Below are positions 298-58,791 of a stretch of DNA of 64,000 bases, one piece after another. The translations under genes and the position numbers were made by a program. Position 1 is the stretch's first letter. Each line of letters begins with the position of its first letter. The notes under the pieces were generated by a model that did not search any database, was not told the origin of the DNA, and saw only the letters and a list, made by a program, of their open reading frames with translations. Location of the stretch: assembly GCA_934047225.1 (NCBI GenBank), contig OW203992.1:18899501-18963500 (forward strand), given 5' to 3'. Source of the DNA: Ypsolopha sequella (lineage: Eukaryota > Arthropoda > Insecta > Lepidoptera > Ypsolophidae).

Positions 298-841
298 TGT
301 GACAGATCGTACCTCATCTGTTCACGTCTCAATTCACAAATAAATGTTATGATAATGGGCAGGAAGATTGTTGTATGTAATCAAATAAATCACGTTGAAA
401 TAAATAAAGCAAATTGAAATCGATCGCGTAGAATAACTGATTTTAAATGATAAATACAGTAAACTCAACCACCGGCCCAAACAATCGGTCCAATATGGAA
501 GGAATTAAGAATAAACTTTCAATTTCAAACATTATGGTTTCCAATTATGCGTGAACCCTAAATTAGCTGTTGTTGTCACGCAACTGCCAAGTTGTTGCCA
601 CGTAGACTAGATGACGCCTTAGGCTTGTCACCATGTGTCTATCTCTTTCACTCTTACTTGTATATTTTTGTCCTGTCCTGCTTACGCCGAGTATATGCTG
701 TTGCCATGTTTTGTTGTTATGTTGCCATCTCTATTACTCTTGTTTGGTTGTCTCACTTTTGTTCGTTCTGCACGAAAGCGCACATAACACCGTTAGCACC
801 GTTTACGCCGATAGCACTGATAACGCTGATATCACACTTAG

Positions 842-878
842 TATATAAATGGGTGAAATGTAGGGTGGGAGGTCATTC
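842..878 (+). promoter_or_regulatory. LTR core promoter: TATA box and initiator
   Basis: TATATAAA at 842-849 is followed by an insect-like initiator, TCATTC, at 873-878. The likely +1 is the A at 875, about 33 bases from the first T of the box, which is normal spacing. No good downstream promoter element is seen. The same arrangement in the 3' LTR (13681-13717) could drive transcription into the flanking DNA at 17.9 kb. It is inferred from motif and spacing only. Confidence 0.55.
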
Positions 879-1034
879 AATTTTACACCGCCGTCAGTGG
901 AAGTGCTGCAAGAAGTCTTAAAGGAGTAGTTCATTTTCGAGTTTGTTTGGGGAAGTTTTTGTTTGTTTTAATAGTGATTTTGTTTTCGGAATTTGCGATT
1001 AAAATACGGAATGTGTCAATCTATCTGTTCGTTA

Positions 1035-1738
1035 GGTCTCGGGACCATTTCGCGTCGCGTTAGCTTTTAGGTGGCGGAATGCCCTTTTTTTCGTAAATAG
1101 ATTCGGTTATGGTCAATAGTTTTTGACTTTTCCGACTCGGCGATTGACACAAACGCGTTTGAATTCGTGTAGGGTGAACGAGCGAACGAGCTAGATTCCG
1201 CGTTATGTAAAGGGTTCGATAATCGTCTTTTCAAGTTCCGAAATTAAAGTACGTTCCTAAATAATGTAATAGTGCATAGGTCGATTCAGGGGTTGATGGG
1301 GAGGAAGGGAGTATGGTCTCTTCCTAGTAATGCCGGACGTGGAAACGGGAAGATGTACCAGGGTACCAATGGCATAGGGCTAGTCGCTGGGATATCTTGA
1401 AGAGTCAGGCAGGGAGCTTACAGAGCGGAAGTCGCTCTGGGCTAGATTCAGGTCACCTACTGGTGTGAACGACAGAGTCTAGTTTTAACCTCCTCTGGAG
1501 GGAAGCAAGCGTCTGGGATGGCCTTGCGCCAGTTTTACATACTGGAACACATCCCCCATGAAAGGCGATGTTTATGGCAAAGCGTCCGAGCCGTGAAGAG
1601 GCTGCGATTTGTTCTGTCCTTTGTCATCTGACTGAGCTGGTCATGGTCTCATATCTATATATTTATATATACACATGATCATATAGGCTATCCCAGCCAG
1701 CGGGGTGACGTCCTTTTTACCTACTGTATCACCCCCTG
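1035..1738 (+). other. Hairpin-rich, probably structured RNA leader in the LTR
   Basis: This stretch is GC-richer than its surroundings and holds many short perfect inverted repeats. They are: GGTC/GACC (1035-1046); CAGAGCG/CGCTCTG with loop GAAGT (1421-1439); CTAGA/TCTAG (1442-1446, 1478-1482) enclosing CACC/GGTG; CCTCC/GGAGG with loop TCT (1489-1501); GGGATG/CATCCC (1515-1520, 1550-1555) enclosing CCAGT/ACTGG (1529-1533, 1541-1545); and GGGGTGA/TCACCCC (1702-1708, 1729-1735), extended by CAG/CTG across a C-C mismatch. They start about 160 nt downstream of the predicted start site, so they would lie in the 5' leader of the element's RNA. A role in packaging, dimerisation, translation or stability is possible but unproven. 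No known RNA family was recognised. An identical copy sits at 13874-14577. Confidence 0.5.
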
Positions 1739-2174
1739 TCTGAGTAGGGCAAAGTTTTAGGGTGTTAGGCACACAGAGAGGTTTCAACTTGCCTCACTTC
1801 TTTCTGTCGATTAGTTAAGGGGTTGTATGGTGTTTGCTAGCACAATATACAACCACACACACGTTTAATTGTAAATGTGAGGTGACGGACCTCTAGCTTT
1901 GAAAATTCACACATTTAAAAGCCTAGGAACATTTGATTTTAGGGCCAAATGTTAGGTAGGTAAATTCCAAAATTCAAGTCTATTGTTAGGACATTAATAG
2001 GTTTTTTGAGAAATTATGCATAGTGGGAGGTTTCAGGTAACTTTCTTCATTGTTCAGGGAAAATAGGTCAATAAATTCAATTATGATAGGTTACAAGTTT
2101 TCAAGTAGATAGGGACCTCTGAAAATTAGAGTTAGTGATTCAGGAATAGGTTGTTGTTGACTAGTTTGTCTGAC

Positions 2175-2430
2175 AAATAGTTTCATTGTTTACTTATCTG
2201 AGAGGGCTTTAAAGTCCAAAGAACTCCAATTTTGAATGTAAGGACATAAGGCTTTGATATTCAAATAGTTTCATTGTTTATCTGAGAGGGCTTTATAAGT
2301 CCAAAGAACTTAAACTTTGAATGTAAGGGCATAGGGCTTTGATACTGAAATAGTTTCATTGTTTATCTAAGAGGGTTTTATATGCCCACAGAACACTAAT
2401 TTTGAATGCTAGGGCATAGGGCTTTAATAT
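2175..2430 (+). repeat. Three-unit tandem repeat of about 85 bp inside the LTR
   Basis: Units begin near 2175, 2261 and 2345. Each opens with 'aaatagtttcattgttta', passes 'gagggctttaaa/tagtcc' and ends with 'gctttgatat'-type sequence. The units differ from each other by several changes, so the array is much older than the insertion. It is present in the same state in the 3' LTR at 15025-15280. No coding potential is seen. Confidence 0.85.
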
Positions 2431-5400
2431 TGGCAATAAATATGAAATGATAGGAAACATAAGTTTCACCACTTAATTATGTCTTAAAATATTGTATTTA
2501 CTTAGGTATTTCTTTCAAGAAATAAAGAGACTTGAGTTTGGCACAAAATATGCCTAAATAACATAGAAAGCCTAGATTTAGAATTCAGGTTGATGAAATG
2601 TATTCTAGACCATAAAAGTTCATAACTGTAGTACCTATCAAACCCTTTTTAAGGTCAGTTCGTAGTAAACATTAAGGTATAAAGTAAAATCAAATAGTTT
2701 GGTATATAAAAATCCAAAATAGAGTATAGATGACTAACAAACCTTTTGGTCAGTATTTACTTACATTCTCCGTTGTCGAAATGACTGTTGCACTGATATA
2801 GAGTAGAACCTTGATGAAATATAGAATGTTTCGGATTTTCTTTTATTACTCAATTGAGTAAGTAACTAATAAACTAACTACCGTGAAAATAGTTTCGGGA
2901 AATCTTTATTGAAGAGAATAATTTCAATTGGTTCTTATAAATGTTCAATAAACTTGAAGTACATAACATGATGTATTAGTTTGCATAAATGCTTTCCCTT
3001 GTCTGGCAAAATAAAAGCCTTAACTGATACTATACACCAAATATGGGGTAGTAAAAGTTGTTCTTCGTCAATGGAATTAAATGAATACATCTTTAGAACA
3101 AAAACAAAGTTCTATTAGTATTTTTAATACTAAATTACCTAGAGCAGATTTCTCTTTCAAAATATATTGAAATTATTCTACTGAGTGTAGTTATAAAATT
3201 GACTACATAAATAACTGCAATACTGTTAAGGATGAAAGTCACAGTAGTTTCATATTACTAGAAAATCAATGATTTTTAAAGTAAACTTTCTTACATGAAA
3301 TGAGGGTTGAAAGCCTAATTTATTGTATTCAAAAGTTTTAATATATTTGAGACTTATTATGTAAAAACCTTACTGAAACTTGGAGATTTTTAGAAAATGG
3401 GTAAAATTCCAACCTGGTAGAAATTTGTACTTATCTGACTTGCATTAAATACAACAAAGACGATTGTATTAGAGAAGTTTATTACTGAAGCAACTTACAA
3501 TTTTGACTTGATAGAAATTCTCTATTGAATAGTAAACAGAATGACTGTACGCTGAATATGAAAGTCCAAGTTTTTTACTAGATAGTTTTGTCAAATTGAC
3601 ATAGCAACTTTTAGTTGAGTATTACCAGCAGTATCTAAGAAATTAATTTTAACTGTCAGTCACTATTTGAGTAGATCTGTTAAAGAGACTGAATCTTTGA
3701 ATGGGACATGGTGCAACACGAGTGATTTCAATATTTGTTACTCAAGTATATAATTAGTAACATTTGGTGTATTTGTATAGATGTACTTGTTCTTTTGTCA
3801 GGCAAAATACAGCCACGAGCTAACTATACACTGAAATGGGGTAGTTTAGCTTACCAATGACATAAGAACAAATAAAATATATTTGGTACAGAAACACAAG
3901 ATAGCCATAAGTTAGAAATCTGAAATCATTCTGTTGGATTATTTGTGTCATTTGTAGTTTTGGTTACTATGATGGTAGGGACGCTCTGGATTTCTTGTTG
4001 GTTCTTTACCAGAGCTGTGTAGTCAGGGAACCAACATAGGCGCGTAAAATTAAAAATAAATAAATAAATCTTAAATTTAGAATTCAAAAAAAAAGTATAC
4101 ACTAAAAAAAGTCACGGGGGTATTCCACATCCAAGGGAAGGTACTTCTGAGAAGTTGCCAATATGGCTTTCTTTGAGTCTCTATTTTATTGACCAGATAA
4201 TCACAGATGTGAGAATTTTACTCACTGTCCTATGGACTTATTCGAAGATTACCAGCTAAATAAGTAATTTTCGTATAGAAGTATCTATCGAGTAATAAGT
4301 TCTACAACATACATAAAGGTCAGCTGTTAGAATACTATTCAGCTTTGATCATCAATAAATTATTAAATTTCAAACTCAGAAATACCTCACCTCATCCATC
4401 CCCAATTACTGGTAGTGGTTATTAAAAAAAAAATAATAATAATGCATTTTATTCATAACATAAACAAACAAAATATGAATGTGATGTATCATCTTAAGTA
4501 ACGGGTATAGTCTAACATAGTAAATTCACATAGCCTCTTAAGAGGCTGACTGGCGCAGAATTGCTACAGAGATTTTATTCACCTTTTTATTATTTGAAAC
4601 ATTAATGAATTTTACATCTAGATTTGTTTACAAAGTGCTATTTATCTCTATGACTTTCATATATTGGCTTAACTGACAAACAGTGAAATTTCTAATCTGA
4701 ACATTTTACCAATACTTTATATTCTCTGATTTTACTATCTAAATCTACGAATTTGGTTTTAATTATTTTATGTCCAATTTACTTAGCACGTGAAAGATAA
4801 GTTATATTTTAGAACAGGACTATTAATAAGGGTTTGTTAGCTATCTTCATCTCTGAATCGCTTCTAAAGAATTTGGGTTACTACTTAAGGCGCAACGTAA
4901 GGTTCTAATCTGACGATCACACTCTGGCCATATATCTGTTAAAATCATTTCTATTAAGCACCAAACGTTAAACTATGTAGGTTGTAAGTGGGTTGTTATT
5001 CGGGTCGATGGAGTTCAGTGTGAGCAGTAATTAGTGTTACAGGATTTAGTACAATATGGGTTATCCGTGACCAGGATAGGTATTTTGGGCTTATTTTAAG
5101 TAATTTGGTGCTTTTAGAAATGGTTTGATACAGTAATGTCACCCAGTTTTGGGTACAATTTGCTGTTCGTGTAAATAGGAGAAGTGATTTAGAGTGTTAC
5201 GATAGATAACTATTTGTATTTATAAGTGGTAAACAGTATATTGTAAATTTGGTCCCGTGGAGGAAGATGATGTAAATTTGTCAACAATGATCAAGGTAAA
5301 CATTAGCTTCTTTGATAGGAAAGTTAACTTCTGATGGTTCCATTGACTGCGTCACTTGTCTTAGGTGTCAGGGGAAGTACTCCAGTACTGAGGTACAGTC

Positions 5401-8400
5401 TCCGTCTTGGTTGAAGATTTAGGGACATCAATAACGGATCCAAAATCTGGAAAATAAAATGAGTCGTTTATTATAATACTTTATCTCTAGCTTTTGCTTA
5501 GTACAGCGGACTAAATTCTTAATTCAGGGTCTTTCAATGAATGTACTAGTATTTAGGGCCAACAATATTTTAACAAAGGTTATGTATTGTGTTTTGCTTG
5601 GTTTATGGAGTCAAGACTTCAAATACAAAGATTGACACAAGTTAAGAGTAGGGGTGAAGTAGGTCCATTAGCGGTAGTGATATAAACTATGCGGCTATAA
5701 AATTAAAGAGAAAGTTATTCTGCCAACACAGTCGAGTTAGTAAAAATTGCATATCTACAATTTTCATTAATTAACAACTAATGTATGAAAGGCCTACCCC
5801 TCTGGGAGACAGGCATGAGTATATGTATGTACTGTATGGAACTACAGAGGTTATCACATGTATTGCGAGGCTATGGGACTTTAGTATAATTAAACGGGAA
5901 CCTAATGATTGATGAATTGGATTTAACTTTGAAAGTAAGTCGAAGTATATAGGTACCTTGTATGCGTGAAGCCTGTTAGACGTACGGTAGATGGTAACAT
6001 ATCACTTTTACACGGAACTATGGGAAGATTCTGTCCATCCAGGACATAGGTAGTGCTCCAACTTTGTACAATTCTTCACAAGTTATGTTGTAGAGAACTC
6101 CATAAGGCAAGTCCGGTGTCTTGCCCTTTTATCGACAGTGTGACCGACATCTGTAAGTAAATGAAAAGGTTTATGAAATGTTTGTTTATGGTGATGAAAG
6201 TTTGTATTTGTACGAACATAATTCAAGAATTTTAATGCTTGTTGGCTCTTAGAAACAACGACTATCGCATGAAAAGCTTCGTTTTCGTGTAATAATTAAG
6301 TGTAAATCTAATAATTTCGAAGTAGAATCCAACTGGAAATGTTTACGTTTGTAAAAGCGGTACATACCTTGTGAGATAATTTTTGCGTCCGAGTTACAGT
6401 AGATATGCTCATGGATCATTTTTGATTTTGTTTTCGGTATCTTCTAAGTGAAGCTTCTTTTGCGGTAGGTCCGTCATGGAATTTAATTTTAAATTAAAGA
6501 AAGCGTCCGTCACTGAGCAAATGGCGTCTGTCAGCTTCAGTTTGAATTTGTTTTGTTTGGTATGTAGAGTTTGTCACAGGTTAGCGAGATTTTTAAAGCG
6601 CTAGATATATTAAAGCTGTTCATATATAGCAAACATTTTCTACATAATTTGATTTTACTTTAGGACACATTTTAGTTTTATAAGTAAATTTGTAAGGTTT
6701 TATTTTAGTTGTATTTCATGTTATTTTAGTTTTTATGTTTCTGTATAAAGAGCTAAACCGAAATGTAGAATATAACCATAGAGTATATTGATGAATGTAA
6801 CCACAGGGTCTGTTCCGTTTTGGAGACAATGATCATTGTACGCTGGGTTTGCGTTTGGACGTGGGTAGAAGTTATTTAAAAGCTGGATTTATTAAAAGGT
6901 TTATTGTATAATTAACAAAAACAAATAAATAAATTAATTCAATTTGCACTTATGTCAGTTAAATTTAAATTATGAGAGAGTAGATGATTGTGTACCCCAA
7001 CTTTATATTAATTTCGAATGTTTGATTGTTTAGACAGATAGCGTTTAAAGTAGTGGCTAGTGAGCGTACAAGAGGATCGTAATGCTTAAAAGGAATGGGG
7101 AAAGTAGAAAATTACCGAAGTAAGTTGAATCAGTGTGTAGGTTAAACTTTGTAACATTGTTCGATGTGTTGATGTGTCACATGGGTTTCTGTAAAATTGT
7201 TTGTCATATTCCTAGTTCTTAGATAGAAACACAAAATTAGAAGATATAGTACTTACCCGTTCATGTGTGTGATCCTGCAAAACCTAGTTCATACAACCGT
7301 CCTGCTTTATACGTTTGTCTCGTTTGCGCTACCGTCGAAACTCGTCGCTTTATCTCTGTCTTTCGCCGCCGGTGTTTTGATCAAGCAACAAGCTCGATAT
7401 TCAGTTGACGATATAAGAATGACAAGTGTAGTATATTTCTTCTTTATGTCGATGGTTGTAGTATGGAGTTGAGTTATTATTAAATACTTAGGTATCTACA
7501 GTTGTTTATTTACGTTTATTTTCCATTAAAATACTAGCAGTTCCATCTAGTGCATGAACTAGGAACTTATTGGGTCGTCAAAATTGGGACACTTATTGAC
7601 GAACAAGCGTAACAAAAGATAGGTAGTTGGTACCGGAATAAATTTATAGATGGCGTTAATACATTATGTTTCATGACGAGTTAAAAATGTTCCAAATTCC
7701 TTTTATCAAATGATTATATTACATAATTGTTCTTATTACTACAGATTTATGTTAGCTTTGCAAGTAAAGTCATTTCGAGATTTGCTACTTGCCAAACAGT
7801 TTGTAGTCTAAACTACTGGCTTTATTTATGGTTTCATTTGTGTTGAAATTAATTACATAACATTCAAGGATATTTACTTTATTTAATGTTTAGAAAAATT
7901 TTATGACGGGAGATAGTAAGGGAGGTGACCGTCAAATGTCGAATTTCAATATAACAAGAGAATTTTATTAATGTTGGAGTTTGTTTATTTACACTAAATA
8001 TATTATCTTATATTGATTTAGAATTCTGGATAAATCATGGCGAGAACCACGTGGAATTTCGTTCAGTAGGTACCTAGTGCAAATGTTGATGAGTGAGTTA
8101 CAAAAATATATAGACGTGTAAAATATAGACGACGGTTATCTAAAAATAATTGGAAATTTATTGTACGTAATAAACATATTAGAGTGTGAAGTCTATTTAT
8201 TGTATTTTTATTTTTTATGGTTAATTATCGATTCGCATCGGCAGGGATCTGTGCGCGAGGTTTAGATGTATTGTCTTGCTTTGTAAGCATAGACCACCTT
8301 CTTCATTAGGCAGTTTTGGGGATCCTTTGTGAAAACATAAGTAGATGCATGGGTTCCGACGATTGGTTTTCGAACTTAAGGTTGACAGTTACATAGGTAA

Positions 8401-9615
8401 ATAAACTAAAGCTGTTTTATTTAAATAATTGTTTTCTTTTTGGTTATTCTCAAAGTAAATATGGGGGTGTTGTCTAAGGCGGTATTTGTAGTATGTACTG
8501 TATGAGTGTATTGTATATATTAGAGATTGAGCAGGTGTAAGTTGCGTAGGTTTTCATGCCAAATTTTGAGAAGGAGTTACAATTAATATTATGTCAGTAC
8601 CAAAGAAACAATTATGGAAAATAGTATTTATTTTAGTTAGTTGAGAATGGGGAAAGGTTAAACATAGTATAGTAGTTAAAAAAAAATTGTATTTAAATTT
8701 AATTAATGTACTATTGTCATCATACACAAAGTAAATACCTACCTATAATGTGTGGACTAATATTTTACAAATAATTGATATGGGATGAAGAATGAATTGG
8801 TAATGGGTAATAGAATCAGGGTTCTTTATGTAAAGTTTCACTTTCTATTAGAGGGTCCAGTATGAAAAGTAACAGTGTTGATAAATCAAATAAGAATCTG
8901 TAAGTGTAAATTTAAAATGGGTATAAGCTATTAGTAGAAAATCGGGTGCCTACCGAAGTGAGGATTTAGTACAAAAAGAGTAATATAAAATTAAGAGGTT
9001 TTGCTGATTTATTGATGGTCCATAATAATGATTTCTGATAAAAATTGAGGGAAAAAGTTTATTGTTAGGTGAGATATGTAAGTACGTTGTTTCAAATAGA
9101 AAATAAATAATACCGTCAACACTTTATTTTACTAAGGGGAAGTAAACTTTTCATACATACAAGAGAAAGGAGTAAATTAGTAGTACGACAAGGGATCGAC
9201 GTGTTAATAGTACTGTAGAAAAGGTTATAGATTGCGTGTTGGTTTGGTTATAGTCTTGGATGATAACTTCAGGGTATTTCAGGGTTGCGTAATTAGTATC
9301 TTTAATATATGTAGACAGTGAAGAACAATTTATATTGATTGAAGATCTGGATGGCGAACTCACGAGGATAGCAACTAATGTGTTGAAGGGTTAGATCGAG
9401 AACTGAGTTGTACTATAAGTTATCTTTGTTGTACTTTGATAAATGCAAAAATCTATTGATCTAGAAGTTTTTCTTAAAGTGAAAGTAGATAAATAATAAA
9501 TAATGGCTAGCTTAACTTTTAATTTTTAGAGAACAAAAAGAAATATAAGTAAATTAGGTAGTATTTTAATCTGACTGGTGGATAGTGTATGTTATTTTCA
9601 CACCAATAATCAAAT

Positions 9616-9684
9616 GTCTCTGTGGCCGAGTGGTTGAATGGTCACTTAGGAAGTAGGAAACCGGAAGTTCGAATCCCTAGTGAC
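9616..9684 (+). other. tRNA-like segment with RNA polymerase III A and B boxes
   Basis: The A box TGGCCGAGTGG (9623-9633) and B box AGTTCGAATCC (9666-9676) match the tRNA consensus closely and stand at tRNA-like spacing. The D-arm resembles Ser/Leu tRNAs. Acceptor and T stems pair poorly (only GTC/GAC at the ends) and there is no proper anticodon arm, so this is not a working tRNA gene. It may be the head of a tRNA-derived SINE inserted in the element, or a pol III promoter captured by it. No poly-A tail or clear SINE body follows within 100 bases. Confidence 0.45.
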
Positions 9685-10899
9685 TTTAACGTATTCCGAA
9701 TTCATTTTTTGTGTTTTTATACTATCTTCTTATTCGTTTAGGTTGTTTTATTTATGTAGATGTTGTATTAAAAATATAATATTTGTGTTTGGTATGATAG
9801 CCTTTATTTTACATTTGATTTCGCATAGGACGCGTGCGTGACGTCAGCATTTATTTACTAGATTTGGGCTGTACATGCAACTAGTGCCTATAATGTGCTA
9901 GTATACTTTTATGAAGCTGAGGGCCCAATTAAATTATATCTATCTTGTGAACGAAGTATAACTGAACAACCTACACTTTAGTTTATATAGCCAGAAGTAA
10001 TCGGTTGCGAAATTTATAGGTTTAGTCTATGAAAGTCAGGTTTCCTGACGATACCTACTGAATTCATGAGAATGCTATTTTAAAGCAATTATTACTGCTG
10101 TTAATAGTAAAGACTAGAATAACTTAAAAATATTTTAAATTATTTAGTATCTTCTGGTTATAATTTGTAGGGTTGTCAATATTAATTATAGTATTTACTA
10201 TTTTTGTTTACTTGCAGGGAAATAATACCTTCGGTCATTAAAAATTAGACAGAATTTGGTAATTAAATGAAAAAAAAAAATACTGTTAATGACTTTCATT
10301 GGTAGTTACATTTTTACTTTAAGTAATTAAATAAAATCTATTAAATTACAAAAAAGTCTTGTTTTATTTAATGAAATATTTAAGGACAAATAGAAAAGGA
10401 AGTAGACAGTGCGTCACTCATGAAGTTTTATATTTTACAGGTAGATGAGGAAGAACTTACTTATTAAGTACAAAGGGAAGTAAGATTGGGGGAAAGTAGA
10501 GAAGAGAAAATTTAAGATTGGAGGGAAGTAGAGAAGAAAATTAAAAATTTATGAAATTTTAATATGTTGACTGTGTAAATGCTTTGTCAATTGATAGTAA
10601 ATTAAATAAAAATAAAAAAAAGTACAAGATCGTATTTTAATAAATTAATTTATTAAGAAATGAAATGTAAAAATATTCGGAAGTTTATTAAAAGCAGTTT
10701 ATTCCAATTTTCTCGTTGTCTTATTGAAATAATAAAAAAAATATATATTAAATTATAGAAATTAATTTGGGTTTTATTTTAATTAGTGGTAGTTAGTTAT
10801 GTTATAAGTTAGTTTATAAGTTAGCTCAAAAGGTATTAGCTTAAGAGGTATTAAAAGATAATATTTTAAATAAGAGGTACTTAAATCATTTAGATTTGT

Positions 10900-11593
10900 C
10901 CATATTTGTTGAGCTGGTGGTTCGTTAGAGAAAGTGTTAGAGAGAATGAGGAAGGAAGTATGTTGTCGGTGGAAGAGATAGAAAGATACGACCATGACAA
11001 TTAACTTTGTCTTTGGCAAAGAAAAGGGCTCTAGCGAGACAACAGTTTCAGGAATGTGGACTCATGTTTATTGTCGTGTTATCCTGGAGACATTACACTA
11101 CACAACAAACTATTTAGTTGAAAAGGAGTTAGGTTAGAGTCGTCTTGACTAATTAGCAGTATAAACTGCGATTCTAAATAGTTTCACTACACACGCAGCT
11201 AATGCAAATTTCCTCGGCAACTATACATTCTCCGAATGGTTGATTAGAATTTAACATTGGAAGAGATTCTGGACTGGGGAATTAGTTATTTGGGTACTTA
11301 TCTTGAGAGCTATTAAAGTGATCTCGATTCAAGAAAGAGACACAAAGGCACATCTATTGTTCAAATTGAAAAAATAGAATTTGGCTAGAAGGTTGTTGTG
11401 TTACCACTAGGGTAGAGTTAATTCACAACTAACTTCTTTGAAGGATTGAGTTCTCCTTGTTTGATGGATATTTATCTGTAATTAATAAACCTATAGATTA
11501 GAATTTCAACTGATTTAATTTTTGATTAAACGTTTGGTATAAAAATTACACCACACATATTCATTCTGGGAGGAACATGATAATAAATACCGA
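10900..11593 (+). repeat. Diverged direct duplication, copy 1 (about 0.7 kb)
   Basis: This block runs from 'catatttgttgagctggtgg' to 'gataataaatacc' and matches 12352-13040 in order along its length. Shared landmarks include 'gagacaacag', 'ctaatgc', 'actatacattctccgaat', 'gctattaaagtgatct', 'aattgaaaaaatagaattt' and 'tctccttgttt'. Divergence is considerable, with many substitutions and small gaps, whereas the LTRs are nearly identical. The duplication is therefore an old, inherited part of the element. No protein is encoded. Confidence 0.8.
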
Positions 11594-11617
11594 ATTTATT
11601 TAGATATGGTTATTTTT

Positions 11618-12218
11618 TATGCAATTGTGAATAGGCATATTTGCCAATGTTGACAATTGTCGTATATGACACTTTATGTGTCTAGCACTCTGCGTAATTA
11701 ACTTTGTGTAGATATGCACTCATGAATATAAGCGTAGTTAAAAATCAGCGAATGCTTGCATTTTGGCGTTTAAAAGTACTTTGCGTACATTTAAAATAAG
11801 TTATATTTTATTTTTTATTCTTTATGTAATTGTGAATGGGCATATTTGCCAATGTTGACGATCGTCGTATATGACACTTTACGTGTCTAGCACTCTGCGT
11901 AATTAACTTTGTGTAGATATGCACTCATGAGTGTAAGCGTAGTTGAAAATCAGCGAATGCTTGCATTTTGGCGTTTAAAAGGACTTTGCGTACATTTAAA
12001 ATAAGTTATATTTTATTCTTTATGTAATTGTGAATGGGCATATTTGACAATGTTGACAATTGGCGTATATGACACTTTACGTGTCTAGCACTCTGCGTAA
12101 TTAGCTTTGTGTAGATATGCACTCATGAGTGTAAGCGTAGTTGACAATCAGCGAATGCTTGCATTTTGGCGTTTAAAAGGGCTTTGAGTAAATTTAAAAT
12201 AAGTTATATTTTAAGTTA
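11618..12218 (+). repeat. Triple tandem repeat of about 200 bp
   Basis: Three units start at 11618, 11823 and 12021 with 'tatg(c/t)aattgtgaat', continue through 'gacactttacgtgtctagca' and 'gcgaatgcttgcattttggc', and end in 'ataagttatatttt'. Units are close to each other, closer than the flanking 0.7-kb copies. The array lies exactly between those two copies, giving an A-(B)3-A plan near the 3' end of the internal domain. No frame stays open across units. Confidence 0.9.
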
Positions 12219-12219
12219 G

Positions 12220-12345
12220 TTTTAAAAGGTACATAAAGGTGGTGTTAAAAAGGTAAAGGTGGTATTAAAAAGGTTAAGGAGGTATTAAAAGGTAATGGTG
12301 GTATTCAAAAGATAGTCATGTTAAATGGAGGTAATTAAAATTAAA
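12220..12345 (+). repeat. Degenerate short tandem repeat (ggtattaaaaaggta-like)
   Basis: About six imperfect copies of a 16-20-base unit of the form ggtggtattaaaaaggtaa occur between the triple repeat and the second duplicated block. A weaker form of the same motif precedes copy 1 (about 10830-10870), so it belongs to the larger duplicated unit. Confidence 0.7.
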
Positions 12346-12351
12346 TAGGTT

Positions 12352-13040
12352 CATATTTGTAGGGCTGGTGGCTTGTTAGGGAAATTGTAAGAGCGGATGA
12401 GGAAGTCAGAGTGTGTCGGTGGAAGGAATGGAATGAAACGACTTTGACATATGACTATGACGTTGACAACAAAAAAAAAGGGCCCTAACAAGACAACAGT
12501 TCGAAGGTGTGGACTTAAATTTATTGTCATCATATCCTGGAGACTCTATACTACACATAAACTTTTAAGTTGAATTGGTGTTAGGTTAGAGTCATAAAGA
12601 CTAAAAGACAGTATATACTGTGATACTTAAAGGTTTAACTCTACACGCAGCTAATGCTATCTTCGGCAACACTATACATTCTCCGAATAGTTGGTTAGAA
12701 TTTAATGCTGGGAGAGATTCCAAGCTGAACAATTGCTCATATGGGTATCTGTATGGATAGCTATTAAAGTGATCTTGGTTTATGAAAGAGGCGCAAAGCG
12801 TGTCTACTTAAATTGAAAAAATAGAATTTGTCTAGAAAATCTTTGCGGTGTCACTAGGACAAGGTCGTCTCACAAACGATCTCTCTGGGAATTTCAGATC
12901 TCCTTGTTTGACGGACAGATTATTCGTGAACAATTAAGCAATGGTTTGGAGTCTCAATCGGTTAAGTTTTGATTAACTACTAGGTATAAACACACACCAC
13001 ACGTGAACGGTCTGGGAGAAAGGTGATAATAAATTAATAT
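12352..13040 (+). repeat. Diverged direct duplication, copy 2 (about 0.7 kb)
   Basis: This is the partner of 10900-11593. It begins 'catatttgtagggctggtgg' and ends 'gataataaattaatatc', about 95 bp before the 3' LTR. In both copies one plus-strand frame starts with a Trp-Trp pair followed by a Val-Arg-Glu-rich stretch, but copy 1 soon hits a stop and copy 2 ends after about 45 codons. I do not regard this as a gene. The position next to the 3' LTR suggests a role as RNA or DNA sequence, if any. Confidence 0.8.
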
Positions 13041-13125
13041 CAGAGTGAACATTGTTATCGTGTATTTGTGAATGATGGGAGAGAAAATTTCCTTCGTTTA
13101 AGGCTTGCTAATCTGCGTAAATTTT

Positions 13126-13136
13126 GGGGAAAGCGC
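13126..13136 (+). other. Polypurine tract candidate of the giant element
   Basis: GGGGAAAGCG followed by one C lies directly before the TGT of the right LTR, with a short T run upstream. T-run, purine tract and LTR in this order are standard for plus-strand priming. It fixes the element's orientation as plus. The tract has one C inside, so it is not perfect. Confidence 0.55.
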
Positions 13137-16100
13137 TGTGACAGATCGTACCTCATCTGTTCACGTCTCAATTCACAAATAAATGTTATGATAATGGGCA
13201 GGAAGATTGTTGTATGTAATCAAATAAATCACGTTGAAATAAATAAAGCAAATTGAAATCGATCGCGTAGAATAACTGATTTTAAATGATAAATACAGTA
13301 AACTCAACCACCGGCCCAAACAATCGGTCCAATATGGAAGGAATTAAGAATAAACTTTCAATTTCAAACATTATGGTTTCCAATTATGCGTGAACCCTAA
13401 ATTAGCTGTTGTTGTCACGCAACTGCCAAGTTGTTGCCACGTAGACTAGATGACGCCTTAGGCTTGTCACCATGTGTCTATCTCTTTCACTCTTACTTGT
13501 ATATTTTTGTCCTGTCCTGCTTACGCCGAGTATATGCTGTTGCCATGTTTTGTTGTTATGTTGCCATCTCTATTACTCTTGTTTGGTTGTCTCACTTTTG
13601 TTCGTTCTGCACGAAAGCGCACATAACACCGTTAGCACCGTTTACGCCGATAGCACTGATAACGCTGATATCACACTTAGTATATAAATGGGTGAAATGT
13701 AGGGTGGGAGGTCATTCAATTTTACACCGCCGTCAGTGGAAGTGCTGCAAGAAGTCTTAAAGGAGTAGTTCATTTTCGAGTTTGTTTGGGGAAGTTTTTG
13801 TTTGTTTTAATAGTGATTTTGTTTTCGGAATTTGCGATTAAAATACGGAATGTGTCAATCTATCTGTTCGTTAGGTCTCGGGACCATTTCGCGTCGCGTT
13901 AGCTTTTAGGTGGCGGAATGCCCTTTTTTTCGTAAATAGATTCGGTTATGGTCAATAGTTTTTGACTTTTCCGACTCGGCGATTGACACAAACGCGTTTG
14001 AATTCGTGTAGGGTGAACGAGCGAACGAGCTAGATTCCGCGTTATGTAAAGGGTTCGATAATCGTCTTTTCAAGTTCCGAAATTAAAGTACGTTCCTAAA
14101 TAATGTAATAGTGCATAGGTCGATTCAGGGGTTGATGGGGAGGAAGGGAGTATGGTCTCTTCCTAGTAATGCCGGACGTGGAAACGGGAAGATGTACCAG
14201 GGTACCAATGGCATAGGGCTAGTCGCTGGGATATCTTGAAGAGTCAGGCAGGGAGCTTACAGAGCGGAAGTCGCTCTGGGCTAGATTCAGGTCACCTACT
14301 GGTGTGAACGACAGAGTCTAGTTTTAACCTCCTCTGGAGGGAAGCAAGCGTCTGGGATGGCCTTGCGCCAGTTTTACATACTGGAACACATCCCCCATGA
14401 AAGGCGATGTTTATGGCAAAGCGTCCGAGCCGTGAAGAGGCTGCGATTTGTTCTGTCCTTTGTCATCTGACTGAGCTGGTCATGGTCTCATATCTATATA
14501 TTTATATATACACATGATCATATAGGCTATCCCAGCCAGCGGGGTGACGTCCTTTTTACCTACTGTATCACCCCCTGTCTGAGTAGGGCAAAGTTTTAGG
14601 GTGTTAGGCACACAGAGAGGTTTCAACTTGCCTCACTTCTTTCTGTCGATTAGTTAAGGGGTTGTATGGTGTTTGCTAGCACAATATACAACCACACACA
14701 CGTTTAATTGTAAATGTGAGGTGACGGACCTCTAGCTTTGAAAATTCACACATTTAAAAGCCTAGGAACATTTGATTTTAGGGCCAAATGTAAATTCATA
14801 AATAAATAGGTAAATTCCAAAATTCAAGTCTATTGTTAGGACATTAATAGGTTTTTTGAGAAATTATGCATAGTGGGAGGTTTCAGGTAACTTTCTTCAT
14901 TGTTCAGGGAAAATAGGTCAATAAATTCAATTATGATAGGTTACAAGTTTTCAAGTAGATAGGGACCTCTGAAAATTAGAGTTAGTGATTCAGGAATAGG
15001 TTGTTGTTGACTAGTTTGTCTGACAAATAGTTTCATTGTTTACTTATCTGAGAGGGCTTTAAAGTCCAAAGAACTCCAATTTTGAATGTAAGGACATAAG
15101 GCTTTGATATTCAAATAGTTTCATTGTTTATCTGAGAGGGCTTTATAAGTCCAAAGAACTTAAACTTTGAATGTAAGGGCATAGGGCTTTGATACTGAAA
15201 TAGTTTCATTGTTTATCTAAGAGGGTTTTATATGCCCACAGAACACTAATTTTGAATGCTAGGGCATAGGGCTTTAATATTGGCAATAAATATGAAATGA
15301 TAGGAAACATAAGTTTCACCACTTAATTATGTCTTAAAATATTGTATTTACTTAGGTATTTCTTTCAAGAAATAAAGAGACTTGAGTTTGGCACAAAATA
15401 TGCCTAAATAACATAGAAAGCCTAGATTTAGAATTCAGGTTGATGAAATGTATTCTAGACCATAAAAGTTCATAACTGTAGTACCTATCAAACCCTTTTT
15501 AAGGTCAGTTCGTAGTAAACATTAAGGTATAAAGTAAAATCAAATAGTTTGGTATATAAAAATCCAAAATAGAGTATAGATGACTAACAAACCTTTTGGT
15601 CAGTATTTACTTACATTCTCCGTTGTCGAAATGACTGTTGCACTGATATAGAGTAGAACCTTGATGAAATATAGAATGTTTCGGATTTTCTTTTATTACT
15701 CAATTGAGTAAGTAACTAATAAACTAACTACCGTGAAAATAGTTTCGGGAAATCTTTATTGAAGAGAATAATTTCAATTGGTTCTTATAAATGTTCAATA
15801 AACTTGAAGTACATAACATGATGTATTAGTTTGCATAAATGCTTTCCCTTGTCTGGCAAAATAAAAGCCTTAACTGATACTATACACCAAATATGGGGTA
15901 GTAAAAGTTGTTCTTCGTCAATGGAATTAAATGAATACATCTTTAGAACAAAAACAAAGTTCTATTAGTATTTTTAATACTAAATTACCTAGAGCAGATT
16001 TCTCTTTCAAAATATATTGAAATTATTCTACTGAGTGTAGTTATAAAATTGACTACATAAATAACTGCAATACTGTTAAGGATGAAAGTCACAGTAGTTT

Positions 16101-17904
16101 CATATTACTAGAAAATCAATGATTTTTAAAGTAAACTTTCTTACATGAAATGAGGGTTGAAAGCCTAATTTATTGTATTCAAAAGTTTTAATATATTTGA
16201 GACTTATTATGTAAAAACCTTACTGAAACTTGGAGATTTTTAGAAAATGGGTAAAATTCCAACCTGGTAGAAATTTGTACTTATCTGACTTGCATTAAAT
16301 ACAACAAAGACGATTGTATTAGAGAAGTTTATTACTGAAGCAACTTACAATTTTGACTTGATAGAAATTCTCTATTGAATAGTAAACAGAATGACTGTAC
16401 GCTGAATATGAAAGTCCAAGTTTTTTACTAGATAGTTTTGTCAAATTGACATAGCAACTTTTAGTTGAGTATTACCAGCAGTATCTAAGAAATTAATTTT
16501 AACTGTCAGTCACTATTTGAGTAGATCTGTTAAAGAGACTGAATCTTTGAATGGGACATGGTGCAACACGAGTGATTTCAATATTTGTTACTCAAGTATA
16601 TAATTAGTAACATTTGGTGTATTTGTATAGATGTACTTGTTCTTTTGTCAGGCAAAATACAGCCACGAGCTAACTATACACTGAAATGGGGTAGTTTAGC
16701 TTACCAATGACATAAGAACAAATAAAATATATTTGGTACAGAAACACAAGATAGCCATAAGTTAGAAATCTGAAATCATTCTGTTGGATTATTTGTGTCA
16801 TTTGTAGTTTTGGTTACTATGATGGTAGGGACGCTCTGGATTTCTTGTTGGTTCTTTACCAGAGCTGTGTAGTCAGGGAACCAACATAGGCGCGTAAAAT
16901 TAAAAATAAATAAATAAATCTTAAATTTAGAATTCAAAAAAAAAAGTATACACTAAAAAAAGTCACGGGGGTATTCCACATCCAAGGGAAGGTACTTCTG
17001 AGAAGTTGCCAATATGGCTTTCTTTGAGTCTCTATTTTATTGACCAGATAATCACAGATGTGAGAATTTTACTCACTGTCCTATGGACTTATTCGAAGAT
17101 TACCAGCTAAATAAGTAATTTTCGTATAGAAGTATCTATCGAGTAATAAGTTCTACAACATACATAAAGGTCAGCTGTTAGAATACTATTCAGCTTTGAT
17201 CATCAATAAATTATTAAATTTCAAACTCAGAAATACCTCACCTCATCCATCCCCAATTACTGGTAGTGGTTATTAAAAAAAAAATAATAATAATGCATTT
17301 TATTCATAACATAAACAAACAAAATATGAATGTGATGTATCATCTTAAGTAACGGGTATAGTCTAACATAGTAAATTCACATAGCCTCTTAAGAGGCTGA
17401 CTGGCGCAGAATTGCTACAGAGATTTTATTCACCTTTTTATTATTTGAAACATTAATGAATTTTACATCTAGATTTGTTTACAAAGTGCTATTTATCTCT
17501 ATGACTTTCATATATTGGCTTAACTGACAAACAGTGAAATTTCTAATCTGAACATTTTACCAATACTTTATATTCTCTGATTTTACTATCTAAATCTACG
17601 AATTTGGTTTTAATTATTTTATGTCCAATTTACTTAGCACGTGAAAGATAAGTTATATTTTAGAACAGGACTATTAATAAGGGTTTGTTAGCTATCTTCA
17701 TCTCTGAATCGCTTCTAAAGAATTTGGGTTACTACTTAAGGCGCAACGTAAGGTTCTAATCTGACGATCACACTCTGGCCATATATCTGTTAAAATCATT
17801 TCTATTAAGCACCAAACGTTAAACTATGTAGGTTGTAAGTGGGTTGTTATTCGGGTCGATGGAGTTCAGTGTGAGCAGTAATTAGTGTTACAGGATTTAG
17901 TACA
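13137..17904 (+). repeat. 3' LTR of the giant element (4768 bp)
   Basis: This repeat matches 298-5053 throughout. The offset is 12839 at the start and 12851 at the end. The change comes from two places: an 11-bp net difference near 14790 (copy 1 has 'ttaggtagg' where copy 2 has an A/T-rich 'aaattcataaataaata' segment) and one extra A in the run near 16937. I saw no other difference in the lines compared. The hairpin-rich tract is at 13874-14577 and the 85-bp tandem array at 15025-15280. Confidence 0.8.
13681..13717 (+). promoter_or_regulatory. Core promoter in the 3' LTR
   Basis: This is the duplicate of the 5' LTR promoter: TATATAAA at 13681-13688 and TCATTC with +1 at about 13714. A transcript from here would cross the remaining 4.2 kb of LTR and could run into the host DNA after 17904. 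Confidence 0.5.
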
Positions 17905-17908
17905 GAGT
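17905..17908. repeat. Right target-site duplication (GAGT)
   Basis: GAGT follows the terminal ACA of the 3' LTR and equals 294-297 before the 5' LTR. Confidence 0.7.
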
Positions 17909-19445
17909 CAAAGCTAACCAGTTCTAAATTCTAAGAATAAAATTTTTGTTGCGCAACTCTGAATAGTCCTGCTATTGATAAAGTCAAAAATAAACCTTGA
18001 AATGCTGTAACATCAGGAAGAAAAAATAAAAACCCAATTTATGAGCAATTTTTTGTAATTAGGTTAGTTCGACACCACACCCTGAAAAAAAATGTTCTAT
18101 GTTAGTTTTGCAAATTGTCTTAAATAACGGCCCATCAAATATTGTTTTTCAAATGATCTGGCAATTTTTGAAAAAAAAGTTATTGCTATTTTACTACCAA
18201 AGGAGCTGCGTATTTTTTTAAATAATTAGAATTTAGAATGAAAGAGTGGCGGGCAGTAAAAATATTTGACGTTCATTAGAAATGCCATTTAAAACGCTTT
18301 AGAGTGAGATAAATAGTGACGCTATTTAAAATGAGTCGAATGAGATAGTAACGCAGTTAAACGTGGTTGAATGAGAGAGGCATAATTGATATAGGCTACA
18401 GTGAGATAGATAGTGACGTGGTGCATTCCTTCTGAGAATATTTGTTAGTTTCCACTTTTTGTAATAACAACTTTAGTAAAAATTTTTTGTAAAGAAATTT
18501 TTGGTCCAATTTATTTTCCCGCAAGTGTAAAACCAGCTCAACGGGCGAAAAATATTTAAAGAATGGGTATTGGTGATAATTAACCGTCACAATATTATTA
18601 TGTATCTCTAAAGGAGTGTCTGAAATGTTCCGAGGGTCAACTGATAAATCAAACACTCAAAAAACCACTTTTAGCCGACCATAATAAATTTACGTCCCGA
18701 CGTGATAGCAAGTAGGATCAATGCCGTGTGACGATGATCGAAATACACTAATAAATTAGATAAAATAAAATACGTATTACTTTTGACCCTGCCTCGTCCA
18801 CTCTATTCGTATTTTTGCTATGGTGACGCGAGCTTAGAGACCGGGACGAATTTCCCCCCGCGCGCTATCGTAAAATAGAATAAGCCACGCCCGGAACTGG
18901 TTTTTGTTTTGGCTATGTCATACTCTTATTAAAGTTTTGACAACGTTTGGACTTTTGGACCCTTAGTAACTTATAAAGAAATTTAATACTCGTTTGTGTT
19001 AAAAATACCGTGCTTTTCCACTTGAGTCAACATTGAAAGGTTTCGGGACACTATTAAATTAGGCGTGTTAAAACGCCTTTTAGTCTTTCACGAAAATGTG
19101 TAAACTAACCCTCTATTGTTTACATTAGCAATTAAGTTGTGAACTGCTGACTCACGGTGTAAATTTTACGAGACTAATTACCGCATTCATCTTGTTTAAA
19201 GCGACAGCGTCACATTTGTGGCGAAATTTTGTGCGTTTCCCTAAATTTATGCCTTTTTGTTGCCATTTGACCGTAAAAGAAAAAACTTTGCGTGGATTTT
19301 TATCTAAACGTGCAAAGTAACATAAAATTTTGTTGGAAATATACTAAAAAGGCAGTTTATGGGAGTATTGTGGTGGCTGCATGGACTCGGTAAGTTTTAT
19401 CTTGTTCCGTGACGCTCTCCTTACAGTTTTCTAAGTTATATGTTA
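17909..19445. other. Flanking DNA without a clear gene
   Basis: AT-rich host or older repeat DNA. At 18396-18656 on the minus strand there is an 86-codon stretch free of stops that starts at GTG right after an in-frame stop. Its composition is not obviously random, but I recognise no family and there is no ATG. At 18300-18420 the phrase 'gagtgagataaatagtgacg' recurs three times with changes, a degenerate short repeat. Nothing else definable was seen. Confidence 0.4.
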
Positions 19446-19879
19446 GGTCTTTACATATGAAATTGCCGTTTTCTATAGAGAATTTGAAGGAAACTCAATT
19501 TTTAGTACTAGTATTTTTGAATTTTTTTTAGGAATGACAAATCCAAATTATCTAATTTCTTATGTGCATAAATGAGACAACATTAAGCTAACAGCAACAT
19601 TCATTTAATTTTTGAAAAGTGTCAGCTGTAAAAAAAAATTACGAATCTATCACGGAAATAGATGGCATTTAGGACGAACCTGGTTTATTCGTCCAAAAGA
19701 CGAACTGTTTTTGAAGATTTAATTTTTATAATGAAACTAAAAAAATAAAAAAACGTAGATGTAAAACGTTGAAATTAAATTTCAAACAAAAAACAAATAA
19801 TTGAAATAGCTATCGAATTACAGGAATTATGAACTCATTAATCTGTAAGAAAATTTCGGCAATTCCATATGTAAAGACC
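19446..19879. mobile_element. MITE family 1, copy 1 (TA-flanked, 434 bp)
   Basis: The ends are inverted: GGTCTTTACATATG at the left matches CATATGTAAAGACC at the right, extending to about 23 bp with one mismatch through AATTGCCG. TA flanks both ends (19444-19445, 19880-19881), the target used by Tc1/mariner-type transposases. There is no coding sequence. Related copies lie at 31307-31744 and, inverted, at 58405-58789. This is the best-preserved of the three. Confidence 0.85.
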
Positions 19880-19881
19880 TA

Positions 19882-22555: not shown

Positions 22556-23020
22556 TGAGCACGCGATATGACGGCAGTGCTTTGTATCACCATAGGTTTT
22601 AAAAATAGCGGGAAGTGAAGAGAAATAATTACGAAGATGAAAGATCTGACCTTGGGAAGGAGCTGCATGCACCACAAACCACGCTTCGCCTGAGCCACCA
22701 AGTCTCTGGTGTTCTCCAAGATGGTTTTCTTCTTCCTCTTCGTGCCTGGTTGCGCTCTTCTCGGCTAATCTTCTTCGTAATAGTAATAGATGAAAATGAG
22801 GCGCACAGCGGGTGCGATCTCAAAATGGCGGGCGGTAGGGTCGAGGTAGGACCTAGTCGAATGACAATCAGCGTATACCTCCGGCGTGAAAGGCTTCTGA
22901 TTGACGACTGATTGATTTGCGTCCAAAACTAAGCGGGTGGAGATGCAGCGAAAATGACAGTTGAAAATATTAATTCACAACTACCCCGCAGTATGAGAGC
23001 CACAAGAAGTGGCGCGAACA
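22556..23020 (-). repeat. 3' LTR of the BEL/Pao element
   Basis: 465 bp; read on the minus strand it begins TGTTCGCGCC and ends GCGTGCTCA, so it has TG...CA ends. No difference from 28927-29391 was seen. There is no TATA box; TCAGTC- and TCATTC-type initiators are present on the minus strand. The open frames on both strands inside it (98 and 64 codons) recur identically in the other LTR and are not genes. Confidence 0.95.
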
Positions 23021-23033
23021 TTTGCCCCCGGCG
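23021..23033 (-). other. Polypurine tract candidate of the BEL/Pao element
   Basis: On the minus strand CGCCGGGGGCAAA abuts the TGTT of the 3' LTR. It is G-rich with C interruptions, so it is a weak but well-placed tract. Confidence 0.45.
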
Positions 23034-23120
23034 TTAAAACCATTGGTTTTAAAATAAGAATAGAAAAGTAAAAATAAGACAGAGAATAACGAAATTTTGA
23101 AGCGGGGGCAAAGAAAGGAG

Positions 23121-26100
23121 TTATTGAGATGGGAGAGGGCAAAGACGCACGACAGGTCGTTTGTAAACACCTGTCGTCGTTTTGACAGAAGCTACCCTAA
23201 TGACATTATCTTTGCCAGGGTATACAGCTACAATAACACCGAGCGGCCATTGAAGCGGTGGAGTGTTATCGGTAACTACAACGACAACAGATCCAATTTT
23301 GATTGGGTTGGAAGGTGTATTCCATTTTCCTCTAGACTGGAGAAGATGGAGATAATCATTCTTCCATCGCCTTGCGAACGATTCTACCATTTGATCAAGC
23401 AACGCGTAGCGACGTAATAAATTAACTGGCTCATCAGCCACCTTACAAGCGGGTAATTCTTTTAAAGGAGTTGACATCAGAAAATGTGCAGGAGTTAACG
23501 CGCTAAGTTCAGATGGATCTTCACTCAGCAGCGTAAGCGGACGAGAATTTATGACACATTCTATTTGCGTAACTACAGTTAATAATTCTTCGTAGGTCAA
23601 CAGTTGAGTACCTACTACTCTATGCAAATGCGTCTTAAATCCTTTGACATATATCTCATAATGTCCCCCAAAATGTGGGCTACGTGGAATATTAAATTTC
23701 CATTGTATTCTATGATCGGCAAGTTCATTCGCGAAAGACGTTTTAAATTCTTCGGAGTTTGTCAAATTGTAAATTTCTGAGAGGGCATTTCTAGCGCCTA
23801 CAAAGTTCGTAGCATTATCTGAATATACGAAAGACACTGCTCCACGTCTAGATAAAAAACGTTTGAACGCGGAAAGAAAAGTGTTCGTGCTAAGATCAGT
23901 TGCCAATTCAACGTGAACTGCACGAGTCACCAGGCATACAAATATGCAGAGGTAACATTTGACGGGACGGACTCCACGTTTTCGATACGGAGTGATACTG
24001 ATAGGACCACAATAATCCACAGCGCAGTGGACAAAAGCTTTAGCCTCATTAACGCGGCATGATGGTAAATCTGCCATGAAAGGGAAGGTTTGTCTCGGCT
24101 TCGCCTTAAAACAATAATTGCAGCTATGTATTACGCGACGAACAATATTTCGACAGGAAAGTATCCAAAATTTTTGGCGGATTATTGACATTAAAGCCAC
24201 TGGTCCAGTGTGACAATTTTTGCGATGATAATGAATGATAATCAATTCGACAATATGATTTTTACGAGGTAACAACACAGGGTGTTGTTGATCGAACGTC
24301 ATGTCTGTGTTGCGAAGTCGACCACCAACGCGTAACAATCCATTTTTATCTAAAAATGGCGATAGTCGATTTAAAGCGGGAGAACAAAGTTTATTTGACT
24401 TTAATCTTTTTATTTCATCAAGAAAATAAAATGCTTGAAGAGCTTTAATCAATGCAACTTCAGCGAAATCCATATCGGTAGCGGTAAAAATATTAGAGCG
24501 CGGTAAAATACGTAAAAATCGGTAGATGTAAATGATTGTGTGTAAAAGCACAAGCCATGACGAAATTCTTTCCGAAAGAGAAAGAAGTGGATGCGGTTCT
24601 TCATTACTAAAAGCGGGAAGAGAAATTGTTTTTGATTCCGGCAAGTTTTCTTCAATAGAAGCTGATTCTATTGTTTTGATTGGCCACTCTTTAGCGTCCA
24701 GATAAAGCCAAGCAGGTCCAGTGAACCAGAGCGGGTGACTCATCAACTGCGTGGGAGTGAGACCACGGGAAAGACAGTCGCTCGGGTTTTGAGAACCAGC
24801 TGTATGGTAAAAACATTCAGCGGGAATAGCGGATATTATTTTTGTTATACGCGTCGCGACAAAGGTTTTAAACCTGTGCGGTGAGGAATGTATCCAGTGT
24901 AAAGTTACCATAGAATCGGTAAAACAGTAAATACGTTCAATATTGTGACGTATTTTATAAGCGTCAACTACACGACGAGTTAATTTCGACATGAGTAACG
25001 AGGCACAAAGCTCAAGGCGGGCGACACTGACGGTCTTGAGCGGACAGACTTTTGACTTTGCGCATACCAGCCGAATGCTAGTGCAAGTGTCTGAGTCATC
25101 TTGTACTCTAATATATACGACACATCCGTATCCACGTTCACTTGCGTCTGCAAATGATATTATCGAAATTTTCGAATTTTGGAACACGTCTAAGTGGCGT
25201 TTAATACGTAAATCCCGCAAAACAGGTAGCTCCTTCAAATAGTTTTGCCAAATCTGCGCAATATCAGAGGGTAGTGTTTCATCCCAGTCTAATTTTAAAA
25301 TACAGATTTTCTGCAAGAGTAATTTTGCGTACAAGATCACAGGAGCGGTAAAGCCGAGGACGTCGTACTGACGTGCTATCACGGACAAAACATTGCGTTT
25401 AGTACATGGGCGACTATCTAGCGATACAGTAAAAGAGAACTCGTCAGAATCAGGCGACCACTGTAAGCCAAGAACTTTAAGAGTTTGAGTTTGTTCTTCA
25501 AAATTCTTACTAGAATTTAAGCGGTGAGTATCAGGCAGTGTATCAAGTAACTGTTGACAGTTACTAGACCACTTGACGAGCTCAAAGCCACCGGCCTTAA
25601 GCAATCCTACCAGCTCATCTCTGAGCTGTAAGGAGCCCTGCACGGTGGGCGTGCTATAGCAGATGTCGTCCATGTAACAGTTTCGTGCGGCTACAGTAGC
25701 GGCGAGCGGGTACGCTGAACTCCCATCCTCACAGAGTTTCCTGACTACTCTCATCGCAAGGAAAGGGCTACTACGTAGTCCAAAGCAGACGCGATTGAAC
25801 TGATAAGCGATAAGCGGTGAACACGTGTCAAAGCGGTATAAAAACTTTTGAAATTTGCGATCATCGGCGTTAACCAAAACTTGTAAGAACATTTGTTTGA
25901 TATCCGAGGTAAAAGCGATTTCATACAAGCGGAAGTCAAGTAAAATTAAAAACAAATCGTTTTGCAAATTAGCACCTGTGTGCAGCGTGTCATTTAATGA
26001 GACACGAGTACCATCAGCGGAGTCAGTCTTAGTACTGGCATTCATACAAATACGCACCTTTGTCGTTGATTTATCAACACGCACTACGGGATGATGCGGA

Positions 26101-28463: not shown

Positions 28464-28901
28464 GTACCAGAACTATTGAAAGTTTTATACCGACTACAAC
28501 ATAGAATAATGCTAATGAGTTAGAGATAACACGGGCGGCGGACGAACCTGTGTACGAGTACCTCTCGATAATATTAAGAATTAGCAGGTAGGCAGATAAT
28601 ATTTTCTGTGAAATGATCAAATGGTATAATCGCAGCGGATAAATTAACAGAATGGCGTATTTCACTGTAGATAATTTATAATTTCCAGTATATAGGAAAT
28701 GGAATCACTAATATTTTGACGAATGCGGGGTTTTAATGCATAGATAATGCAAATAAGAGCGGGAATGCGGGGTAATACTGCGGGCAGAGTGAAAATTAGA
28801 GCGGAATTCACGTGTTCTTTAGACAAAGAACATGAAGATAGCGGTTGGAAATACCAAAAAATGGTTATAGATCGCAGATCAAAGGGCCTAAAATGGATCT
28901 A

Positions 28902-28920: not shown

Positions 28921-28926
28921 AAAAAA

Positions 28927-31744: not shown

Positions 31745-31746
31745 TA

Positions 31747-58789: not shown

Positions 58790-58791
58790 TA

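Follow-up and report, generated by a model that had tools for sequence, protein, structure and literature searches.

We analysed a 64-kb stretch of the genome of the moth Ypsolopha sequella (C9:18899501-18963500; hereafter the window), in which a long terminal repeat (LTR) element of 17.6 kb occupies positions 298-17904 of the plus strand. The element consists of a 5' LTR of 4,756 bp (298-5053), a non-coding core of 8,083 bp (5054-13136) and a 3' LTR of 4,768 bp (13137-17904). The LTRs were delimited by self-comparison; they start with TGTGACAG and finish with TTTAGTACA (TGT...ACA type). The copy ends were located to the base, and the target-site duplication GAGT is present directly outside the 5' LTR (294-297) and directly outside the 3' LTR (17905-17908). 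Together with its copies elsewhere in the genome, the element forms a young, multi-copy family of gene-free giant LTR retrotransposons with the anatomy that we tested for large retrotransposon derivatives (LARDs).

The two LTRs in the window were equal at 4,754 of 4,756 aligned bases (two mismatches), and self-comparison found no third copy of the repeat within the window. The differences were one 11-bp block with two adjoining mismatches (1952-1956 / 14792-14806) and a one-base slip in an A-run (4085/16936). The 11-bp block with its flanking mismatches resembles a copying slip rather than point mutation.

Other copies and their age

We searched the whole genome (866.8 Mb, 151 contigs) with the 5' ends of the LTR and the core. 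Many of the contigs measure 20-34 Mb, a size that together with the element content suits a moth or butterfly. With the initial 403 bp of the LTR as query, there were 362 first-look candidates; the 40 that were scored were all 100% identical to the query. The initial 397 bp of the core yielded 108 candidates, and all 40 that were scored matched at 97-100%. Of the 40 LTR matches, two were those of the window, 32 belonged to 15 other full elements and six were single LTRs; as they were picked by a perfect match to the query, this sample is biased toward young copies. LTR lengths ranged from 4,585 to 4,827 bp across the 40. The outer 4-bp duplications matched in 15/15 other full elements. Four of the single LTRs were solo LTRs with duplications, and the other two were 3' LTRs with the polypurine tract in front of them. 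Thus, in all 19 further insertions for which both outer ends were read, the start and end were the same as in the window and were flanked by matching 4-bp duplications. Including that of the window, 19 of 20 duplications were different (ATAG was seen twice). No copy of the element was found in public viral contigs.

An earlier note, made from the letters of the window, had taken the long repeats for LTRs on the strength of their TG...CA ends, the shared GAGT and an adjacent purine tract, and had suggested a search for copies with the same ends and distinct duplications. The results of that search bear the assignment out, with exact ends and duplications in the window and the same arrangement in its siblings.

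Two of the 16 full elements were LTR-core-LTR-core-LTR arrays (C6:22106348-22136061 and C6:11495923-11526285) with matching duplications at their outer ends, and within each array the two cores did not differ in the 4,000 bp that were compared. These tandem arrays probably arose by unequal recombination, an effect of assembly being an alternative. A third such array may be present on C19 at about 13.36 Mb, where two core matches are 12.4 kb apart.

The LTRs within an element had no mismatches in 7/16 elements, counting the C6:11.5 array, whose three LTRs all agree. In the remainder the numbers of mismatches were 0-1 (the C6:22.1 array), 1, 1, 1, 2, 3, 11, 13 and 17, with 0-3 indels, the largest difference being 17 of 4,707. 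Between insertions, in contrast, LTRs differed by 0.02-3.19% (22 LTRs from 22 insertions). LTR pairs are therefore alike inside elements and unlike between insertions, as is expected from reverse transcription of one RNA, and the recent movement claimed in the earlier note is supported. The mutation rate of a butterfly is 2.9e-9 per site and generation. At this rate, an age below about 1e5 generations would follow for pairs with no mismatch, and one of about 6e5 generations for the oldest pair.

Promoter, primer-binding site and polypurine tract

The LTR contains a TATA box, TATATAAAT (842-850, plus strand), followed by an initiator (Inr)-like TCATTC (873-878, plus strand). The TATA box was the same in 22/22 LTRs from 22 insertions and TCATTC was kept in 21/22, whereas the bases immediately before TCATTC differed among these LTRs. 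TATAAA starts 31 bp before the A of the Inr, the predicted +1, a spacing that matches a Pol II promoter; 0.09 such pairs are expected per LTR under base-by-base shuffling. We therefore predict that transcription would start at about position 875, with U3 spanning 298-874.

The 5' LTR is followed by ATA and a primer-binding site on the plus strand (5057-5077), which consists of TGG, five odd bases and a 13-base complement of tRNA-His, CCGTGACCAGGAT (5065-5077). The site was matched against 21 tRNA sequences, each of which ARAGORN assigned to the right isotype; a match of 13 nt was reached in 0/1,818 control windows. Among the siblings, the match reaches 13 bases in two and ends at 10 in the other 13/15. 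The exact 18-base tRNA-His site was found at 55 places in the genome, compared with none for the reversed control pattern. Among the 40 of these that were read, 10 belonged to the family of the window (TAGTACA, ATT, the exact site and a family-like leader) and the rest to other LTR families. Self-priming of the kind known from Tf1 was also considered and dismissed, as the longest match was 7 nt.

A polypurine tract, GGGGAAAG followed by CGC (13126-13133, plus strand), lies directly upstream of the 3' LTR. The 22 bases preceding the 3' LTR were the same before 19/19 other 3' or middle LTRs. Thus, the family has kept both a primer-binding site and a polypurine tract, the primer-binding site of the window copy itself being imperfect.

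The core and its relatives

Six-frame translation of 298-13136, with X at stops, gave no Pfam family at E<=1. The same procedure detects real genes, as it found six families in one frame of a coding element described below (L105), and the unbroken frame of a BEL/Pao element in the window likewise gave six. The longest open frame of the core has 92 codons, a length equalled in 141/200 dinucleotide shuffles; a 119-codon frame in the LTR was reached by 40/200 dinucleotide shuffles of 298-13136. Both are at chance level. An 81-codon frame (7227-7469) is open in three of the four copies compared and shifted in one (L057). The Pfam scans and the shuffles thus dismiss hidden or decayed genes, in agreement with the gene-free core proposed in the earlier note.

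A function through RNA structure found no clear support either. The core RNA of LARDs was reportedly claimed to be structured in the original work. In 150-nt windows of 298-13136, however, there was no folding excess on average (mean z -0.01), single windows folding to z -4.3 (sense) and -4.6 (antisense), and the sibling copies are about 97% identical. Rfam gave nothing at the gathering threshold in the element, with one match at chance level (E 1.5).

We compared the window core with those of other copies and of more distant elements. Three other cores (L055, L056 and L057) are collinear with it, at about 97-98% identity over most of the length and 90-95% in parts; none of the three has an open frame of more than 102 codons, and the sense frames of L055 and L056 contain no Pfam family. 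On C4, a 3-kb stretch of a subfamily (L102), located 0.8-3.8 kb downstream from a junction with the exact site, aligned to window 6356-9275 at 84% identity; Pfam detected no family in any of its six frames. Because this 84% subfamily also lacks a Pfam family in the 3 kb read, the gene-free state of the family looks old.

A further LTR family with the same primer site (L104) has no frame of more than 83 codons and no Pfam match above the cut-off in 3 kb; one sub-threshold match had an E value of 0.03. It shares three collinear weak matches with window 6147-6383. The best covers 124 bp at 68.5% identity (E 1.5e-6), and the other two (E 0.003 and 0.03) are at control level, the best match of the reversed element also being 0.003. 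For two more groups with the tRNA-His site, six-frame scans of 3 kb (L103) and 1.6 kb (L106) yielded no Pfam match, stretches that are too short to call these families gene-free.

The sense strand of the core is poor in C (0.118, compared with 0.205 for G; GC skew +0.27), whereas the skew of 4-kb windows of 29392-64000 ranged from -0.09 to +0.04. Elsewhere in the tRNA-His group the skew was +0.28 (L102), +0.24 (L103), +0.15 (L104), +0.17 (L106) and +0.26 (the coding L105). Sense-strand C was 0.115-0.147 in the window core, L102, L103 and L105, in gene-free and coding elements alike. The C-poor lean may thus be a habit of the whole tRNA-His group. Strand-specific editing was dismissed as its cause, since A/G changes outnumbered C/T changes 1.4-2.4 to 1 among copies and 1.5 to 1 between internal duplicates, compared with about 1.6 expected from base composition (worked out by hand).

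The core also contains an older internal duplication (10847-11588 and 12300-13034, plus strand), the two copies of which are 74% identical. Between them lies a tandem repeat of about 198 bp in three copies (11610-12213, plus strand), where the alignment of the four cores is heavily gapped. A tRNA-like stretch with A-box and B-box, perhaps a SINE-type head, was noted by eye at approximately 9616-9683 (plus strand); it has no tRNA fold, and a tRNA gene at this position was dismissed (no tRNA call, fold z -0.13). In the LTR, a repeat scan found three 85-bp tandem repeats (2174-2431, plus strand).

Candidate helper and other elements

One of the other LTR families with the exact tRNA-His site is coding. 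On C11, the stretch 1.5-3.1 kb downstream of the site (L105) contains 494 codons that are open to the end of the piece read. Pfam detected a G-patch (E 3e-10) together with five families of aspartyl protease; among the latter, RVP alone passes the cut-off (21.5 bits compared with 20.7). Further, a match to the beginning of the Ty3 reverse transcriptase (7q5b) spans residues 417-486 (E 1.3e-7). We regard this putative Ty3/Gypsy-like family as a candidate helper. Further LTR-like junction groups with the exact tRNA-His site were seen (L083, L100, L062, L074 and L064; L106 adjoins the L086 junction).

The window itself contains a young BEL/Pao element on the minus strand (22556-29391). Its 465-bp LTRs are identical, its target duplication is of 5 bp (GAGGT), its single frame runs unbroken for about 1,782 codons, and its primer site matches tRNA-Tyr over 12 nt. 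Other repeats in the window are three 123-bp tandem repeats, 98% alike and ending in TTTGTCTGTCT (55309-55678), and a dispersed repeat of about 400-450 bp in three copies, 82-86% alike and one of them inverted (19436-19881, 31298-31746 and 58416-58801).

Discussion

The element is very probably a non-autonomous LTR retrotransposon of the LARD type, copied via RNA with the enzymes of another element. Mobilisation in trans is the sole mechanism that we judge sensible for it. RNA polymerase II would start at the TATA/Inr pair in U3 and produce a long gene-free RNA, which would keep the signals acting in cis, namely the promoter, the repeated ends, the primer-binding site, the polypurine tract and the LTR termini. 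The Gag, reverse transcriptase and integrase of the helper would package this RNA, prime it with tRNA-His and rebuild both LTRs from one RNA, and insertion would leave the 4-bp target duplication. The helper would most likely be a Ty3/Gypsy element with the same tRNA-His site. That an active helper must exist had been stated in the earlier note: a coding Ty3/Gypsy-like family with the same site is indeed present, whereas its present-day activity is something that we infer.

Several points weigh against this account. A transcript, a particle and new insertions of the element are predictions of the model, and the link between the coding L105 family and the element is the shared primer site and no other. 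The TATA/Inr pattern is also found elsewhere: each LTR has one on its minus strand (1667 and 14506), and the window has two more. Further, all 16 full elements have four or five odd bases between TGG and CCGTGACCAG where tRNA-His needs TG, the variants being TGG, then GTTAT, GTAA or GTAG, then CCGTGACCAG. Priming by tRNA-His in young copies with this altered site is thus imperfect and unexplained. The copies with the altered site are young, and the alteration therefore does not block spread. The odd bases persist in the 16 full elements, though copying of the tRNA in each cycle should remove them.

That the two 4.76-kb repeats arose by segmental duplication or misassembly is hardly credible. 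The near-identity of the pair, taken alone, would permit a segmental duplication, and the three repeats and two cores in two of the 16 elements fit one. Such an origin is, however, refuted by the 19 other insertions, which share the start and the terminal ACA and are each bounded by a matching duplication of their own; repeat pairs that are mostly far closer within an element than between elements, and solo repeats with duplications (4/6 of the single LTRs read), also argue against it. We consider it improbable, if less so, that the element is a deletion derivative of a surviving coding element with the same LTRs and not a member of a long-standing gene-free lineage. A coding element that lost its interior gave rise to some terminal-repeat retrotransposons in miniature (TRIMs), according to one study (PMC10886601), and a coding sibling could be among the rest of the 362 first-look LTR matches, of which 40 were scored. 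On the other hand, the three collinear cores without long open frames (two of them without sense-frame Pfam families), the 84% subfamily without a Pfam family in 3 kb and the old internal duplication of the core itself at 74% all point away from such an origin.

The non-autonomous reading leaves room for a helper other than the tRNA-His Ty3/Gypsy-like family. Another element, for example the nearby BEL/Pao with its unbroken 1,782-codon frame, could well serve, although we do not favour it. The tRNA-His site is present in at least seven flank groups, of which one was seen to code; another of these groups could be the helper, and for this reason we raised our estimate for a different helper, which we had first rated as unlikely. 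As for BEL/Pao, its 5-bp duplication and its best primer match, 12 nt of tRNA-Tyr, contrast with the 4-bp duplications and the tRNA-His site in the LARD family.

A broader reading of the relatives is tentative and falls somewhat short of an even chance. The window family, the 84% subfamily, the distant relative with traces of the core (L104) and perhaps two more groups may form a guild of giant LTR elements without genes that diversified in the gene-free state, all parasitic on one tRNA-His Ty3/Gypsy lineage whose primer site they share, like SINE families on one LINE. Our estimate for this guild was lowered slightly, given that only one of the three L104 matches exceeds control level.

This family provides an animal LARD that has been checked base by base, from its ends, target duplications and solo LTRs to the dating of its copies, its promoter and primer site and a candidate helper. 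How a 17.6-kb RNA without genes secures packaging and copying by another element, and whether a tRNA-His site common to both provides the hold, can now be put to the test. Further, LTRs near 5 kb occur in an insect genome, where short-read repeat annotation would probably fragment them.

By its anatomy the family belongs with the LARDs: it has direct LTRs of several kb with TG...CA ends, a fixed 4-bp duplication, a core without gag-pol or another gene, a total length well above 4 kb and a dispersed, multi-copy distribution with conserved structure. The plan of giant LTRs around a long non-coding core, recognised in the earlier note, is thus that of a multi-copy family. At 17.6 kb, the element is far from the size of TRIMs (total under about 1 kb), and it contains no gag-pol with reverse transcriptase and integrase as a coding Ty3/Gypsy member would. 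Ogre, a giant Gypsy element of plants, carries gag-pol. As far as the accessible parts of the sources go, here and below, Ogre (LTRs of 1.9-6.5 kb) and the planarian Burro are likewise very large, and Burro differs from the moth element in carrying a large Gag-Pol polyprotein (PMC6431247). The TRIMs PbTRIM of a harvester ant (PMC3532108) and Helenus (PMC10886601) are, like it, non-coding LTR elements of animals, but are under 1,000 bp. Animal Helenus elements share primer-site similarity with Gypsy only, and the use of tRNA-His is reported for some of them (PMC10886601).

The earlier note knew of no described insect counterpart, which is correct in part. LARDs are listed in insect genomes by automatic pipelines: they make up 7.26 Mb, or 3.10%, of the honey bee genome (PMC4028053), together with TRIMs 13.8 and 18.8 Mb in bumblebees (PMC4414376), 859 copies in a whitefly (PMC9143410), 8.84% of the genome of the yellow stem borer (PMC10923946) and 0.19% of the repeats of Spodoptera littoralis (PMC9339325). 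In both bee papers, LARDs were inspected manually only if they contained a coding element (PMC4028053, PMC4414376). These annotations, moths included, share the class name with our family, but are pipeline classifications for which the accessible texts describe neither ends and duplications nor primer sites or helpers. In the literature searched, which mostly lay outside subscription papers, we found no insect LARD whose ends, duplications and primer site had been verified.

LARDs are said to have been described from cereals (barley and other Triticeae) by Kalendar and colleagues in 2004. Cereal LARDs are dispersed and move in trans. They have LTRs of about 4.4 kb and a core of about 3.5 kb without protein-coding capacity, and in 2012 LARDs were reported from plants only (PMC3532108). 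The moth element resembles them in LTR size and in its non-coding core, a likeness of anatomy. It differs in its larger core (8.1 kb compared with about 3.5 kb), its animal genome, its tRNA-His-type primer site and the tandem repeats near its 3' end.

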